A stretch of DNA of 64,000 bases from Halorussus marinus (lineage in GTDB: Archaea; Halobacteriota; Halobacteria; Halobacteriales; Haladaptataceae), in contig NZ_SBIV01000003.1 of NCBI RefSeq assembly GCF_004765795.1, positions 62,001 to 126,000 on the forward strand. The letters run 5' to 3'. The translations under genes were made by a program, and so were the position numbers. The stretch's first letter is position 1. Each line of letters opens with the position of its first letter. Positions 6,182 to 57,108 of this stretch are shown here, piece by piece. The notes beneath the pieces are model-generated. The model ran no database searches. It saw nothing but the letters and a program-made list of their open reading frames with translations, and had not been told where the DNA came from.

Positions 6182-6699
6182 CGGTCCGCCCGGCCGACTA
6201 CTGCCCCGACTGCGGGACCGCCACGACGACCCGGGAGATAGAGGACCGCGAGCGCCGGTACTGCGAGGCCTGCGACCGCCCGGTGTTCCAGAACCCCGCG
6301 CCGACCGCCGCGGCCGGCGTGGTCGACGGCGACTCGGTGTTGCTGGTTGAGCGGGCGGTCCCGCCGGGGGTCGGCGAGTGGACCGTCCCCGGCGGCCACC
6401 TCGAAGCCGACGAACAGCCCGCGGTCGCCGCGGCCCGAGAACTCCGCGAGGAGACCGGCGTCCGGGTCGACCCCGACGCGCTCGAACTGGTCGACGCAGA
6501 ACTCCTCGCTCCGTTCCGTGGTAAGCGCGCCGTCTCGATGGTGTACGCCGTCCCGGCGGCCCGCGCCGAGGGGGCGCCCACCGCCGGGTCCGACGCCGCC
6601 GCGGTCCGGTTTTTCTCCCGCGACGAGGTCGAGGCCGACGAGGACGCGTTCCGGCCCCACGTCCCCGACCGAGTCGAGTCGGTCCTCGACGCGATCTGA
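6178..6699 (+). CDS. NUDIX hydrolase with N-terminal zinc ribbon
   Basis: A 173-residue pyrophosphohydrolase. A four-cysteine ribbon (CPDCG...CEACDRP, about residues 9-33) precedes a NUDIX fold. The NUDIX box is complete: GGHLEADEQ, seven residues, then RELREETGV, matching G-x5-E-x7-REUxEExGU. The layout matches NudC-like or ADP-ribose-type enzymes, but the substrate cannot be predicted. I chose GTG at 6178 as the start because it places the ribbon at the N-terminus and overlaps the thrC stop by 4 bp (GTGA), so it belongs to the preceding operon. Confidence 0.87.
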   Translation: MTVRPADYCPDCGTATTTREIEDRERRYCEACDRPVFQNPAPTAAAGVVDGDSVLLVERAVPPGVGEWTVPGGHLEADEQPAVAAARELREETGVRVDPDALELVDAELLAPFRGKRAVSMVYAVPAARAEGAPTAGSDAAAVRFFSRDEVEADEDAFRPHVPDRVESVLDAI

Positions 6700-50654: not shown

Positions 50655-52082
50655 ATGAAAGAATACCAAACTATCACCGAAATCAGCGGCCCGCTGGTGT
50701 TCGCCGAAGTTGACGAGTCCATCGGATACGACGAGATCGTCGAGATCGAGACCGAACAGGGCGAGACGCTCCGCGGGCAGGTGCTCGAATCCAGCGACGG
50801 TCTCGTCGCGATCCAGGTGTTCGAGGGCACCGAGGGCATCGACCGCAACGCCTCGGTCCGGTTCCTCGGCGAGACGATGAAGATGCCGGTCACAGAAGAC
50901 CTGCTCGGGCGCGTCCTCGACGGGACGGGCCAGCCGATCGACGGCGGCCCCGAGATCGTGCCCGACGACCGCCACGACATCGTCGGCGCGGCGATCAACC
51001 CCTACGCCCGCGAGTACCCCCAGGAGTTCATCCAGACCGGCGTCTCCGCCATCGACGGCATGAACACCCTGATCCGGGGCCAGAAGCTCCCGATCTTCTC
51101 GGGCTCGGGACTGCCCCACAACGACCTCGCGCTCCAGATCGCCCGACAGGCGACCGTCCCGGAGGAAGAGGCGGACGGCGACGACGAGGAGGGCTCGGAG
51201 TTCGCGGTCATCTTCGGCGCGATGGGCATCACTCAGGAGGAGGCAAACGAGTTCATGGACGACTTCGAGCGCACGGGCGCGCTCGAACGCTCGGTCGTCT
51301 TCATGAACCTTGCCGACGACCCCGCGGTCGAGCGGACGGTCACCCCGCGGATGGCGCTCACGACCGCCGAGTACCTCGCGTTCGAGAAGGACTACCACGT
51401 ACTGGTGATCCTGACGGACATGACCAACTACTGCGAGGCGCTCCGCGAGATCGGCGCGGCCCGCGAGGAGGTGCCGGGTCGCCGTGGCTACCCCGGCTAC
51501 ATGTACACCGACCTCGCCCAGCTCTACGAGCGGGCCGGCCGCATCGAGGGCCGCGAGGGGTCGGTCACCCAGATCCCGATCCTCACGATGCCCGGCGACG
51601 ACGACACCCACCCGATCCCGGACCTCACCGGCTACATCACCGAGGGCCAGATCTACATCGACCGGGACCTCAATAGTCAGGGCATCGAGCCGCCGATCAA
51701 CGTGCTACCGAGCCTCTCGCGGCTGATGGACGACGGCATCGGCGAGGGGTTCACCCGCGAGGACCACGCCGACGTCTCCGACCAGATGTACGCGGCGTAC
51801 GCGGAAGGCGAGGACCTGCGTGACCTCGTGAACATCGTCGGTCGCGAGGCGCTCTCGGACCGCGACAACAAGTACCTCGACTTCGCCGACGCCTTCGAGA
51901 CGGAGTTCGTCCAGCAGGGCTTCGACACCAACCGGGACATCGACGACACGCTCGACCTCGGCTGGGACCTGCTCGGGATGCTTCCCGAAGAGGAGCTCAA
52001 CCGCATCGACGAGGAGTTCATCGAGCGCTACTACCCCGAGGACGACGAGACCGAGACGGCAGAAGAAGTCGCGGCGGACTGA
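50655..52082 (+). CDS. atpB: A-type ATP synthase regulatory subunit B
   Basis: A 475-residue non-catalytic partner of subunit A. It lacks a Walker A (the loop reads [20 protein letters not shown], about 152-171), as usual for [32 protein letters not shown] (about 277-307) is diagnostic. It is the last of the tightly packed atp genes before the light module; the next atp gene, atpD, lies 3.76 kb downstream. Confidence 0.97.
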
Positions 52083-52175
52083 CGACCGATCTCTTTTCGA
52101 CCGCTCGCCGAAAGCGGTGGTGCCGGGCCGGCGGGCGTCCCCGATGTTCATACGTCAGGAGTCCTACGCTAGCGT

Positions 52176-54161
52176 ATGACAACGCGTGGCGTGGACGGGG
52201 CAGACGTGGTGTACGTCGCCTCGGCGGCCGACACCGCGGCCGACGTCGCCGACGGGCTGGCGGCCGCGGGCGCGGCAGTGACCGTCGTCGCGTCGGCGGA
52301 CGCCGCGATCCGGGCGGTCCGCGAGCGCGACCCCGACTGCGTCGTCACCGAGTTCCGACTCGGCGAGGGAAACGGCCTCGACCTTCTACGTCGGCTCCGG
52401 CGCGAGCGCGACCTCCCGGTCGTCGTGTTCTCGGACGCCGACGATCCCGCGCTCGCGGCGGCGGTGCTCGACGCCGCCGGCGCGTTCGTTCCGACCCACG
52501 ACGGCGGCGTCGATCGGCTGTGTCGCCGGCTCGCGAACTGTCTCGGCGACGAGGCTCGCGTGGGCATCTCCGAGACGATGAAAGAGCGCGCGATGGACGA
52601 AGCGCCCGTCGGCATCACGGTCGCCGACGCGACACAGCCCGACGAGCCGCTCGTCTACGTCAACGAGGCGTTCGAGCGGCTGACCGGCTACTCAACCGAG
52701 CAGGTGCTGGGGCGAAACTGCCGGTTCCTGCAGGGGCCCGACACCGACCCCGAGGCGGTTCGAGAGCTCCGGGCGGGCATCGATGGGGCCGAGCCCGTCT
52801 CGGTCGAACTCCGGAACTACCGTCGGAACGGCGAGCCGTTCTGGAACCGCGTGGACGTCGCCCCGATCCGGGACGGCTCGGGAACCGTCACTCACTACAT
52901 CGGGTTCCAGACGGACGTGACCCGGCGTCGACGCGCCGCGACCGCCGCGCGCCGGTGGGCCGAGGAGTGTCGCGCCGAGCGACGGACGGTCGAACACGTC
53001 CTCGACCGGGTCGAGGGGCTGGTCGAGGACGTGACCCGGGTGTTAGTCGAGGCGTCGTCGCGTCGAGCGGTCGAACGTCGGGTCTGCGAGCGGGTCGCGG
53101 CGACCCCCGGATACGCGGCCGCGTGGGTGGGGCGGGTCGACCGGACTCGCGACGAGGTTACCACGCGCGCCCGAGCGGGCGATGTCGACCGCTCGCTCGG
53201 CGATCGGTCGGTCGACCTCTCGTCCGCCGCGCCGGCCGCGCGTGCGGTCCGAACCGGGACGGCCGAGTCGGGCGAGGGGTCGGCCGCCTCGCCGGACTCA
53301 GACCCGGCCGACTGCTCGACGATCGCGGTGCCGCTCGCCTACCGCGAGACGACGTACGGAGTGTTGACGGTGTACGGGGCCGACTCGAACGCGTTCGACG
53401 CCCACGACGCGACCCTGCTCGCGTCGGTCGGGCGGGCGACCGGCAACGCGATCAACGCCATCGAGAGCAAGCGAATGGTGGCGGCAGACGAGGTCGTGGC
53501 CGTCGAAGTGACCGTCTCGGATCCGAACGCGCCCCTCACCGAACTCGCCGCGGCCGCCGGTAGCCGGTTCGAGTTCGAGGGCGTGAATCGCCGATCCGAC
53601 GGGACCGTCGTGCTCTTTCTGGGAGCAGACGGCGCGGTGTCGTCGGACGTCGACGACGACTCGTCGGTGCGGGCGATCACCGCGGTCAGCACCGATCCCG
53701 AGTGGTCGCTGACGGAGGTCTCGCTCTCGGCGGACACCGTCGTCGGCCGACTCGGGGATCTGGGCGTTCGGCTGACCGACCTCGACGCCACCGACGAGCG
53801 CGTCGCCTATCGGTTCGAGGCGCCCGGCGAACCCGTGGCCCGATCGGCCGTCGACGCCTTCGAGGACCGTTACGACGGCGTCGAGCTCACGCGGTTTCGG
53901 CGTCGCGAGCGGTCGGACCGCTCGGGGCGGGGGTTCGTCCGCGACGTCCGCGACCGGCTCACGGACCGCCAACTGACCGCGCTCCAGAAGGCGTACTTCG
54001 GCGGGTTCTTCGAGCGGCCCCACCGGGTGACCGGCGACGATCTGGCCGACTCGATGGGCATCTCCCGGTCGACGTTCCACCAGCACCTGCTCGCGGCACA
54101 GCGAAAGGTCCTCGGAGCGTTTCTCGAAGACCGCCCCGACCTCGACCCGATACCACACTAG
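52176..54161 (+). CDS. bat: Bacterio-opsin activator: pseudo-receiver, LOV/PAS, GAF, Bat and HTH-10 domains
   Basis: A 661-residue transcription factor. Residues about 8-122 resemble a response-regulator receiver, but the phospho-acceptor position is Glu59 (CVVTEFRL), not Asp. Residues about 138-250 are a LOV-type PAS: GRNCRFLQG (179-187, with photoadduct Cys182), then NYRRNGEPFWN and YIGFQTDVT. A GAF-like domain spans about 285-440, a Bat-type domain about 445-595, and the HTH-10 domain about 608-655 (LTDRQLTALQKAYFGGFFERPHR). It should sense blue light or redox state and activate bop. It starts 93 bp after atpB on the same strand; its stop codon lies inside the bop activator palindrome. Confidence 0.92.
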   Translation: MTTRGVDGADVVYVASAADTAADVADGLAAAGAAVTVVASADAAIRAVRERDPDCVVTEFRLGEGNGLDLLRRLRRERDLPVVVFSDADDPALAAAVLDAAGAFVPTHDGGVDRLCRRLANCLGDEARVGISETMKERAMDEAPVGITVADATQPDEPLVYVNEAFERLTGYSTEQVLGRNCRFLQGPDTDPEAVRELRAGIDGAEPVSVELRNYRRNGEPFWNRVDVAPIRDGSGTVTHYIGFQTDVTRRRRAATAARRWAEECRAERRTVEHVLDRVEGLVEDVTRVLVEASSRRAVERRVCERVAATPGYAAAWVGRVDRTRDEVTTRARAGDVDRSLGDRSVDLSSAAPAARAVRTGTAESGEGSAASPDSDPADCSTIAVPLAYRETTYGVLTVYGADSNAFDAHDATLLASVGRATGNAINAIESKRMVAADEVVAVEVTVSDPNAPLTELAAAAGSRFEFEGVNRRSDGTVVLFLGADGAVSSDVDDDSSVRAITAVSTDPEWSLTEVSLSADTVVGRLGDLGVRLTDLDATDERVAYRFEAPGEPVARSAVDAFEDRYDGVELTRFRRRERSDRSGRGFVRDVRDRLTDRQLTALQKAYFGGFFERPHRVTGDDLADSMGISRSTFHQHLLAAQRKVLGAFLEDRPDLDPIPH

Positions 54162-54168
54162 TGTGGTA
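54151..54168 (+). promoter_or_regulatory. Perfect palindrome, probable Bat-binding upstream activator of bop
   Basis: TACCACACTAGTGTGGTA is an 18-bp perfect palindrome that spans the bat stop codon. Its core, ACC-n2-ACTAG-T-n-TGG, agrees with the Halobacterium bop UAS as I remember it (ACC-n2-ACTAGTT-n-GG type). Its centre is about 47 bp before the bop ATG, close to the spacing known there. A TATA-like TTCTATCC (54175-54182) follows at a suitable distance but is weak. Confidence 0.75.
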
Positions 54169-54206
54169 CGTCGCTTTCTATCCTTCAGCATTATTTACTA
54201 AGTGCT

Positions 54207-54956
54207 ATGCCACAACCAGGTAGCGAATCGATTTGGCTCTGGCTCGGAACCGCCGGTATGTTCCTCGGGATGGTGTACTTCATCGCGAGGGGCTGGAACG
54301 AACGCGACCAGCGACGACAGGAGTTTTACATCGTCACGATATTCATCACCGCCATCGCGTTCGTGAACTACCTCGCGATGGCGCTCGGGTTCGGGCTGAC
54401 GACCGTCGAACTGGCGGGCGAGACCCTCGACATCTACTGGGCGCGGTACACCGACTGGTTTTTCACCACGCCGCTGTTGCTCGTCGACCTCGGGCTGTTG
54501 GCCCGAGCGAACCGCAACCAGCTCGGCACGCTGGTCGGTCTCGACATGCTGATGATCGCGACCGGCGCGGTCGCGACGCTGGCCGCCGGAACCGGCGCGC
54601 TGGGCGAGGGCGCTCGACGCCTGATCTGGTGGGGCGTCAGCACCGGCTTCCTCGTGGTGTTGCTGTACTTCCTGTTCGGCACGCTGAGCTCGCAGGCCTC
54701 GGAGGTGTCGGCCGAGGCCCAGTCGACGTTCACTCGGCTCCGGAATCTCGTCGTCGTGGTGTGGGCGGTGTATCCCGTCTGGTGGCTGGTCGGCACGGAG
54801 GGACTCGGGGTGATCGGACTCGGCCTCGAAACGGCCGGCTTCATGGTTCTCGATCTGGTCGCCAAGGTCGGCTTCGGCTTCATCCTGCTGTCGAGCCGCA
54901 AGGCCATCGACGACGCCGCCGCGGCCGGCGGCGACCCCGAACCCGCGGCCGCGTGA
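54207..54956 (+). CDS. bop: Bacteriorhodopsin, light-driven proton pump
   Basis: A 249-residue seven-helix retinal protein. All pump residues align with Halobacterium BR: R80 (R82), D83 (D85, proton acceptor), T87 (T89), D94 (D96, proton donor), D113 (D115), E198 and E208 (E194/E204, release group), D216 (D212) and the retinal Schiff-base K220 (K216). The blocks are [20 protein letters not shown] and [17 protein letters not shown]. This is a DTD-type outward proton pump, not halorhodopsin or a sensory rhodopsin. It has no long leader before helix A. It lies between bat and crtY, inside the atp gene cluster. Confidence 0.97.
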
Positions 54957-55061: not shown

Positions 55062-55817
55062 ATGAGCACGATCACCTACTTCCAGTTTCACGTCGCCTTG
55101 CTGGTCCCCGCGTTGCTCGTCCTGTCGGCGATCTCGTCGGTTCGACGGCGGGCCGGATCGAGCGACGTCCGTCCGTCGGGCGTGGTCGTCGTCTCGGTCG
55201 TCGCGCTGGCGTACACGATTCCGTGGGACAACTACCTCATCGAGGTCGGCGTCTGGCGGTACGGGACCGGCGCCGTCGCGGTTCGGATCTGGAACGCGCC
55301 GCTCGAAGAGTACCTCTTCATCCTGATCCAACCGATCCTCGTCGCCCTGTGGCTCCACCACCTGAAGCGGCCGCCGAAAGCCGGTTCGGAGTCGCTCTCG
55401 GTGACCCGCCGGGCGCGGATCGCGGGCGCCGCGGCGGGACTCGGGATCGGCGGCGTCGGCCTCGGGCTCCTCGCGCGCCCGGCGACGCTGTATCTCGGCG
55501 CCATTCTGGCGTGGGCCGGCCCGGTGCTCGCGCTCCAGTGGGGCTTTGGTTGGCCGTACCTCTGGCGGCGGCGACGGACGCTCGCGATCGGCGTCGGCGC
55601 CCCGACTGCGTACCTCTGGGCCGCCGACTGGCTCGCGCTCCGATACGGCATCTGGGAGCTCGCGCCCGCGTACACTACCGGCTGGAATCTGGCGGGACTG
55701 CCGGTCGAGGAGGCGACGTTCTTCGCCGTCACGAACCTCTTCGTGGTGCAGGGCTTGCTACTGTACGCGTGGGTGCTCGACGGTCGACGCCGACCGTCGG
55801 CGACTGAAAAAGGTTAA
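55062..55817 (+). CDS. crtY: Lycopene beta-cyclase (fused CrtYc-CrtYd type)
   Basis: A membrane enzyme that closes both ends of lycopene to beta-carotene, the precursor of retinal. 251 residues, with two halves of similar layout: [15 protein letters not shown] (about 51-65) with [10 protein letters not shown] (79-88), and [15 protein letters not shown] (193-207) with [14 protein letters not shown] (213-226). About seven helices. It is 105 bp after bop, a gap holding only a CGCTTCGCTCG-type hairpin, and ends 28 bp before atpD. It would supply chromophore precursor; no brp/blh cleavage enzyme is in this window. Confidence 0.93.
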
Positions 55818-55845: not shown

Positions 55846-56544
55846 ATGGCCAAGGACGTCAAACCCACTCGGAAGAACCTGATGCAGATCGAGGATCGCA
55901 TCGAGCTCTCCGAGCGGGGTCACGACACGCTCGAAAAGAAGCGTGACGGTCTCATCATGGAGTTCATGGACATCCTCGATCAGGCCCAGGACGTGCGCGC
56001 CGACCTCGAGGACGACTACGAACTCGCCCAGCAGAAGATCAACATGGCCCGGGCCATGGAAGGCGACGTGGCGGTTCGAGGCGCCGCGGCCGCGCTGAAA
56101 GAACACCCCGAGATCACCACCGAGTCGAAAAACATCATGGGCGTCGTCGTGCCCCAGATCGAGTCGAGCAAGGTCCGGAAGGGCCTCGACGAGCGCGGAT
56201 ACGGCGTCTTAGGAACGAGCGCCCGGATCGACGAGGCCGCCGAGGCCTACGAGGAGCTCTTAGAGAGCATCATCCTCGCCGCGGAGGTCGAGACCGCGAT
56301 GAAGAAGATGCTGACCGAGATCGAGACGACCAAGCGCCGCGTGAACGCCCTGGAGTTCAAGCTCTTGCCCGATCTCAACGACAACAAAGAGTACATCGAG
56401 CAGAAGCTCGAAGAGCAAGAGCGCGAGGAGATCTTCCGGCTCAAGAAGATCAAGGGCAAGAAAGAAGAAGAGGAGAAAGAAGAGCGCGCCGCCGCCGCGG
56501 CCGAAGCCGCCGAGGACGAGGAAGTCGTCACCGCCGACGACTAA
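55846..56544 (+). CDS. atpD: A-type ATP synthase subunit D (central rotor)
   Basis: A 232-residue coiled-coil rotor subunit. [36 protein letters not shown] at the start and [39 protein letters not shown] near residue 165-205 are diagnostic. The C-terminus is an acidic and Ala-rich tail. It is separated from atpB by bat, bop and crtY, all on the same strand. A 14-bp-stem hairpin follows 6 bp after its stop. Confidence 0.95.
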
Positions 56545-56605: not shown

Positions 56606-56712
56606 TCGTCACTCCCTTCGGGGGTTCCTCGGTCCGCTCGCTTCGCTCGCTGATCTGCGGTATTGTGCCCGCTTTCGACCACGCCTTTCACTTCGCCCGC
56701 CGACGCTCCGAT

Positions 56713-57108
56713 ATGACCTGTCCGAACTGCGGTATCGAGCGCCTCGCGTTCGCGGTCCCGACCGACCTCCGGGAGCATCTGCCCGACGACGCCGAGCGCA
56801 TGGCGATCTGTCCGCGGTGTCTCGACCTCGCCCCGGTCGAGGACGCCCCGGCAGACCTGCCGGACTTCGCGGGAATCAGCGACGCCGTCCCCGACGGCGA
56901 GGCGGGCGCGACGATGGCGCTCGCGATCGGGCTACTCGATTCGCTGGCGCTCTACCGGAGCGAGATCGGAGCCCTCCTAGAGCGGGTCGAGCGCGCGGGC
57001 ACCGACCCCCTGCTCGTGGTCGACCGGCTCGCGGCCGACCCCGACGTCGAGCCCCGGTTCGACCTCGATCGGCGCCGGACCCAGATCGAACAACTGCTGT
57101 ACGGCTGA
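56713..57108 (+). CDS. Zinc-ribbon protein of unknown function (DUF6276-like)
   Basis: A 131-residue protein. Two CxxC pairs (CPNC at 3-6 and CPRC at about 37-40) form a zinc ribbon with the segment LREHLPDDAERMAI between. A helical C-terminal domain (about 70-131) has ALAIGLLDSLALYRSEIGALLERVE. I think it belongs to haloarchaeal DUF6276. ATG 56713 is chosen so the first CxxC is at the N-terminus; a start at 56665 is possible. Confidence 0.75.
   Translation: MTCPNCGIERLAFAVPTDLREHLPDDAERMAICPRCLDLAPVEDAPADLPDFAGISDAVPDGEAGATMALAIGLLDSLALYRSEIGALLERVERAGTDPLLVVDRLAADPDVEPRFDLDRRRTQIEQLLYG

Follow-up and report, generated by a model that had tools for sequence, protein, structure and literature searches.

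Does the 18-bp perfect palindrome at the end of bat serve as the activator site of the bacteriorhodopsin-type gene bop that follows, and does its symmetry carry any meaning? We examined this question within the window, the whole stretch of 64,000 nucleotides that was analysed, in the genome from which it comes and in related loci.

A palindrome at the junction of bat and bop

The features that bear on the question are the following, with positions counted in the window.

50655..52082, + strand: atpB, ATP synthase subunit B, upstream border of the bat-bop-crtY insert (assigned by eye and from the locus in PMC7755889)
52176..54161, + strand: bat, a 661-aa regulator with receiver-like, PAS, GAF, BAT and HTH_10 domains
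54090..54092, + strand: codon of Leu639 (predicted recognition helix of Bat), a position held by Arg in 40 of 44 tails
54151..54168, + strand: 18-bp perfect palindrome TACCACACTAGTGTGGTA, the proposed Bat-dependent upstream activator sequence (UAS) of bop, with ACC-n2-ACTAGT-n2-GGT at 54152-54167
54152..54159, - strand: distal half-site AGTGTGGT, with an identical distal half in 2 of 30 relatives
54160..54167, + strand: TATA-proximal half-site AGTGTGGT, whose fourth base (54163) is G
54159..54161, + strand: bat stop codon, the TAG within the ACTAGT core, where the bat reading frame ends
54172..54181, + strand: non-canonical TATA-like element CGCTTTCTAT, positioned from the R1 profile match at 54150-54180
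54207..54956, + strand: bop, bacteriorhodopsin-type gene, 249 aa (PF01036, E 1.2e-68)
55062..55817, + strand: crtY-type lycopene cyclase gene (PF18916, 26.1 bits, just below the 27-bit cut-off)
55846..56544, + strand: atpD, ATP synthase subunit D, downstream border (assigned by eye and from position)

The layout itself is already known, since the available portion of PMC7755889 describes bop between atpB and atpD in many haloarchaea. The best solved chains for the bop product are cruxrhodopsin-3 and a bacteriorhodopsin. The regulator combines HTH_10, BAT, PAS and GAF domains, all above the Pfam cut-offs, and we assigned it to the Bat family on that basis; it resembles the HTH_10/Bat family (PF04967, PF15915) in domain content and in its helix-turn-helix, and differs from it in Leu639.

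The original prediction described an 18-bp perfect palindrome overlapping the bat stop codon and centred about 47 bp before the bop ATG. Both points were confirmed: TACCACACTAGTGTGGTA is identical to its own reverse complement, the TAG lies inside ACTAGT, and the centre is 47 bp upstream of the ATG at 54207. The site matches all 12 fixed bases of the pattern ACCNNACTAGTNNGGT, that is, the ACC and GGT ends and the ACTAGT core. Within the window, TACCACACTAGTGTGGTA has no second match at up to 3 mismatches, and 100 shuffles yielded none.

Symmetry alone is weak evidence, because the window holds three perfect 18-bp palindromes against a mean of 1.25 in a first-order Markov simulation, in which 44 of 60 simulated windows contained at least one. 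We therefore rejected perfect symmetry as an argument for function. The tetranucleotide CTAG, in contrast to its expectation from dinucleotides (about 79), occurs only 8 times in the window, an avoidance of about tenfold, and the ACTAGT core is thus more notable than the symmetry. Place and conservation of the site mean more than its palindromic form.

In Halobacterium, mutagenesis revealed a UAS on the 5′ side of bop, and Bat is said to work through this element, according to excerpts from PMC1447603, PMC1885257 and PMC1502140, the last of which reports the motif near up to 108 genes. The window site is like the bop UAS of H. salinarum/NRC-1 in lying upstream of a non-canonical TATA, in its ACC and GG ends, in its ACT..T core and in being the presumed target of Bat. 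It is unlike that UAS in being perfectly symmetric, with the second T after the core replaced by G, and in that bat and bop form a tandem in which bat immediately precedes bop and runs into the site. The Halobacterium UAS is reported in work by Baliga and DasSarma (1999, 2000), and their saturation mutagenesis of 1999 reportedly gave the consensus ACCcnactagTTnGG; the proximal TT, in upper case in that consensus, reads TG in the window.

Conservation of the site and its linkage to bat

We collected 47 bop loci by scanning genome contigs with the bop protein, a set from which the window's genome or very near ones were possibly excluded. For each locus, the best match to ACCNNACTAGTNNGGT was sought in the 150 bp before the chosen start codon, with equal scores resolved towards a distance of 47 bp. 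For 12 of the 47, in which the protein match set in downstream of the gene's start, the start codon was picked by hand; choosing an ATG 3 bases further upstream in several Halorubrum loci would change the distance from 52 to 49. At least 9 of the 12 fixed bases are present in 30 of the 47 relatives, and each of these sites has its centre 47-52 bp before the start; among dinucleotide-shuffled upstream regions, 488 of 9600 scored at least 9. The other 17 loci were left out of the consensus, although score-8 candidates exist in six, with centres lying 44-53 bp upstream of the start.

Among the 30 relatives, the majority consensus includes CC-n-AACTAGTTG-n-GTACG-n-CGCTTA, so the TATA-like element is conserved as well. 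The window reads CGCTTT where this majority reads CGCTTA, and the weak TATA box of the original prediction was a fair description. A 36-column DNA profile (R1), trained on the 30 relatives and not on the window, gave 33 matches over the 47 loci plus the window (465,377 bases), all at bop promoter sites; 30 of these are training sites that match by construction and two are on the opposite strand. Places with at least 11 fixed bases number ten in the 47 loci (401,377 bases), and nine are bop promoters. The remaining one, TCCATACTAGTCAGGT at L044:3391-3406, lies about 0.5 kb before bop.

In a genome whose bacteriorhodopsin is 92% identical to that of H. salinarum, ACCATACTGATTGGGT stands 46 bp before bop. 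Genome G087, which encodes a bacteriorhodopsin with 100% identity to the H. salinarum query across residues 3-262, showed no site in the 91 bp between bop and the contig end. Among 28 further opsin loci, in which L070 repeats L003 and L111 repeats L083, 13 have a site with at least 9 fixed bases at 37-54 bp before a possible start. Within the genus of the window, bop is patchy, as a match of more than 50% identity to the bop protein was found in only one of 17 congeners (G011, among G001-G017). We also observed by eye a different palindrome, CGGAAATTTCCG, about 49 bp before bop and adjoining bat in Halorubellus salinus (L033).

Presence of the site mostly follows that of bat. Counting a tblastn match to the window's Bat at E <1e-40 (our own cut) as strong, we found strong bat matches in 32 of the 47 loci; in 27 of these the match precedes bop and has the same orientation. 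Within the fetched loci, a strong match accompanies 29 of the 30 sites and only 3 of the 17 loci without a site, or 5 of 17 when the weaker bat-like matches in L024 and L042 are counted (Fisher p 2.7e-8, a value that ignores shared ancestry among loci). The three exceptions on the one side are L033, L040 and L049, with a strong bat match but no good site. On the other, L035 has a site and no bat in its fetched locus; a Bat relative is present elsewhere in its genome. The fetched bop of L023 has no site; at another place in that genome, CCCCAACCAGTTGGGT lies between a Bat relative and a second opsin gene, 44 bp ahead of the latter. Whole genomes do not lend themselves to a clean test of association with Bat, because each of the 21 genomes queried has 7 to 44 Bat-like matches.

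The original prediction held that many unrelated copies in the genome would speak against a Bat site. In the genome of the window (3,763,720 bp in 37 contigs), there is one exact copy: the window site is the sole match without mismatch both to ACCACACTAGTGTGGT and to ACCNNACTAGTNNGGT (ACC-n2-ACTAGT-n2-GGT). It is also the sole match to R1 at E ≤10 (E 0.024; 106 first-look candidates scored). Allowing up to 2 mismatches to ACCNNACTAGTNNGGT, we counted 52 forward matches vs. 34 for a reversed control pattern, and the three places with one mismatch (L002, L056 and L057) fall within reading frames whose third-position G+C suggests that they are coding. A second model, R2, made from the 20-base core alone, had no match in this genome at E ≤10 (150 of 317 candidates scored). 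R2 reported neither the window site at E ≤10 nor L017, one of its own training sites; the model is weak and its silence in the genome therefore tells little.

The original prediction proposed a search for copies at crtB, brp or other opsin genes. In this genome, neither the other two opsins nor the blh-type gene nor either of the two phytoene-synthase-type (crtB-type) genes, each with 1.5-kb flanks, yielded a site, and the best score of a weight matrix over these five loci (about 3.6-3.9 kb each) was 10.2, inside the L052 opsin gene, against 23 for the bop site. No wider regulon emerged from R1 or among the ACCNNACTAGTNNGGT matches listed at up to 2 mismatches. The window genome is in this respect unlike H. 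salinarum/NRC-1. In Halobacterium the site is common to the retinal-synthesis genes of the regulon, although this is not a universal criterion for a Bat site. In the window species, the site may be used for bop alone, or other sites may have diverged.

One unusual base, one unusual residue and the bat stop codon

Bases 2-4 of the proximal half-site are G, T and T in all 30 aligned relatives, and the window has G (54163) as the fourth base; the fourth base of the distal half varies (T in 21, G in 6, A in 2 and C in 1). None of the 30 relatives has a perfect palindrome. Because the base is absent from all 30, the symmetry of the window site appears to be a lineage-specific T-to-G change at a conserved position. 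The nearest relative, L003 (bop 89% identical), has ACCACACTAGTTTGGT, one base away from the window site, and the same sequence is found in L070 (G011). The perfect palindrome, to which the original prediction drew attention, is thus not the sign of an ideal site, as T is invariant where the window has gained its symmetry. Symmetry need not strengthen the site, and it should not be taken for an improvement.

Outside the 30 relatives, the 13 sites in further opsin loci have T at the proximal position in 12 cases and A in L082, and the T is therefore not absolutely required. A or C is also found there in sites before halorhodopsin-like, cyclase-like and DUF4397 genes. Among 392 Halobacteriales genomes, the 17-mer ACCNNACTAGTGNGGTA occurs in three, those of the window, G011 and G115; in G011 and G115 the match and the downstream gene are on opposite strands, which leaves the window as the only one of the three with the proximal G. 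Judged by descent and place, the window site is the bop site, with a departure at the proximal TT base.

The base change coincides with a change in the presumed DNA-binding part of Bat. The 89-residue tail of Bat is predicted to form four helices (mean pLDDT 85.7), the last of which (residues 59-79 of the tail) is presumed to be the recognition helix. The predicted helix-turn-helix resembles sigma region 4, with Z scores of up to 8.8, a range also reached by common helical arrangements. A Foldseek search with the tail gave no match at E ≤0.001 (best E 0.022), and a sequence search for solved helix-turn-helix relatives returned nothing convincing. In this helix the window Bat has Leu639, in the context HQHL(L)AAQRK. 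Apart from the Arg of most of the 44 tails, which include two second copies of the same gene, position 639 is Gln in two (Halobacterium-type), Thr in L026 and Leu in the window. Five tails outside this set have Arg (L003, L013, L033 and L037) or, in the distant L042, Gln. Counted back from the end by us, Leu639 corresponds to Gln661 of the 674-aa Halobacterium Bat of G087. A Q661R/Q665R variant of Bat is cited in PMC7755889 and PMC6471424, where the title of the cited work speaks of increased DNA-binding affinity.

A joint change of residue 639 (Arg to Leu) and of the site (T to G) is suggestive only, because it would be a single event and because Bats with Arg also stand beside sites without the T: L123, L125 and L137 have A or C. 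Conversely, L026 has Thr at residue 639 and T in its site. The comparison points to a testable pair, one base and one amino acid that differ together.

The overlap with the bat stop codon is a separate matter. Among 26 loci with bat in tandem upstream and a site with at least 9 fixed bases, two from Halobaculum species (L008 and L009) use the TAG of ACTAG as the bat stop codon, and in a third, L007, the stop overlaps the site by one base. L123 offers another case: there the same TAG terminates a Bat relative (site GCCCAACTAGTCGGGT) upstream of a cyclase-like gene, which was named by eye and has no Pfam match. The nearest relative does not share the overlap, since its bat ends 64 bp before the site. 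A simple account would be that a bat frame losing an earlier stop runs on into the TAG, with no special mechanism needed.

Interpretation of the site and alternative explanations

The palindrome is probably the Bat-dependent UAS that is known from the bop gene of Halobacterium, a reading to which we give a probability of roughly 0.8. It draws on the sequence and position of the site, its conservation, its linkage to bat and its uniqueness in the genome; from these we infer that Bat itself binds, does so as a dimer and activates, and also where transcription starts. A Bat dimer would most likely grip the two half-sites through its C-terminal helix-turn-helix and may assist the basal factors at the poor TATA-like element, which lies about 15 bp past the centre, so that the bop transcript would start with little or no leader. 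The likeness to the Halobacterium bop activator site, put forward in the original prediction, is supported by the conservation in 30 of 47 relatives, by the unequal occurrence of bat and by uniqueness. The site appears to be a conserved promoter element, ordinary but for one odd base.

Alternatively, the site may be bound by another factor, for example a Brz-like zinc-finger protein, with Bat acting indirectly. We consider this unlikely. Deletion of brz in H. salinarum lowers bop and crtB1 mRNA, and the available text of PMC2253796 leaves open whether Bat acts through Brz; the same excerpts describe small CPxCG proteins that regulate bop in Halobacterium. Downstream of atpD, at 56665-57105, the window encodes a DUF6276 protein with two CPxCG-type motifs, a candidate for such a factor. 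However, the site tracks bat (29 of 30 vs. 3 of 17), and in L137 a similar site accompanies a Bat-family gene that has no opsin gene as its neighbour, both of which favour Bat as the binding protein.

Two further readings are far less probable. That the palindrome forms an RNA hairpin or terminator where the bat mRNA ends is suggested by the predicted fold of the window transcript, with a 7-bp stem at -15.2 kcal/mol (z -2.45; matched by 4 of 200 shuffles). In the 30 relatives, however, the arms pair at 71.1% of positions vs. 70.5% when shuffled, with 203 of 500 shuffles as high, although slid versions of the arms pair less (24.7-46.7%). No T run directly follows the palindrome, and it is the distance to bop that is kept, while that to the bat stop varies widely. 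As the 30 relatives gave no sign of pairing kept by compensatory changes, we rejected a hairpin or intrinsic terminator. It is equally improbable that the palindrome is a chance occurrence and that bop is read through from the ATP synthase operon, needing no promoter of its own. One such palindrome per window is about what chance would produce, and the accessible part of PMC7755889 describes bop of H. marismortui as lacking its own promoter. Against this, the sequence and its distance are conserved in 30 of 47 relatives, with the TATA-like element behind. Unlike the H. marismortui bop as described there, the bop genes of the window and of most bat-linked relatives are preceded by a conserved UAS and a TATA-like element.

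If the palindrome is the UAS, a bop gene inside the ATP synthase operon is predicted to have its own Bat-controlled promoter when bat is present. The bop UAS has so far been known mainly from one genus, as far as the excerpted literature extends, and the comparison provides a consensus across many haloarchaea.

Similar sites are also found before genes other than bop. In G115 (L137:3385-3400; L114:1501-1517), a Bat-family gene (PF15915, E 1.3e-40) is followed by ACCCCACTAGTCGGGT and then by a DUF4397 gene, with the centre 54 bp before its ATG. Sites lie 50, 51 and 44 bp upstream of halorhodopsin-like genes in L123, L125 and L130, respectively; these genes were named by eye, and PF01036 was confirmed for L125 only. 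The sites before the cyclase-like and halorhodopsin-like genes are at L123:4509-4524 and 6684-6699, L125:5561-5576 and L130:2373-2388. Of 16 stretches around Bat relatives, seven contain a place with at least 10 of the 12 fixed bases and nine contain none, which shows that a neighbouring site is not general to the Bat family; in L130, one of the seven, our pattern recognised no Bat-like frame.

It is possible, but in our view rather doubtful, that some Bat-family activators form a portable cassette with an operator at or past the 3′ end that controls the next gene, and that operator and helix were re-tuned together in the window lineage. If so, the next gene would mostly be bop, a carotenoid-cyclase-like gene in L123 and the DUF4397 gene in L137, and the stop codon would be part of the operator in four genomes.

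Two others of the seven stretches have their places near Bat relatives, with 10 of 12 fixed bases, at L131:5169-5184 and L134:4170-4185, the latter about 60 bp ahead of the bat-like gene's own start. In the window, a 12-bp palindrome noted by eye, TACGCTAGCGTA (52165-52176), contains a second CTAG and overlaps the bat start codon, and is possibly an autoregulatory site. The sequence GAGTCCTACG lies just upstream of the bat start and is also found before bat in L003.
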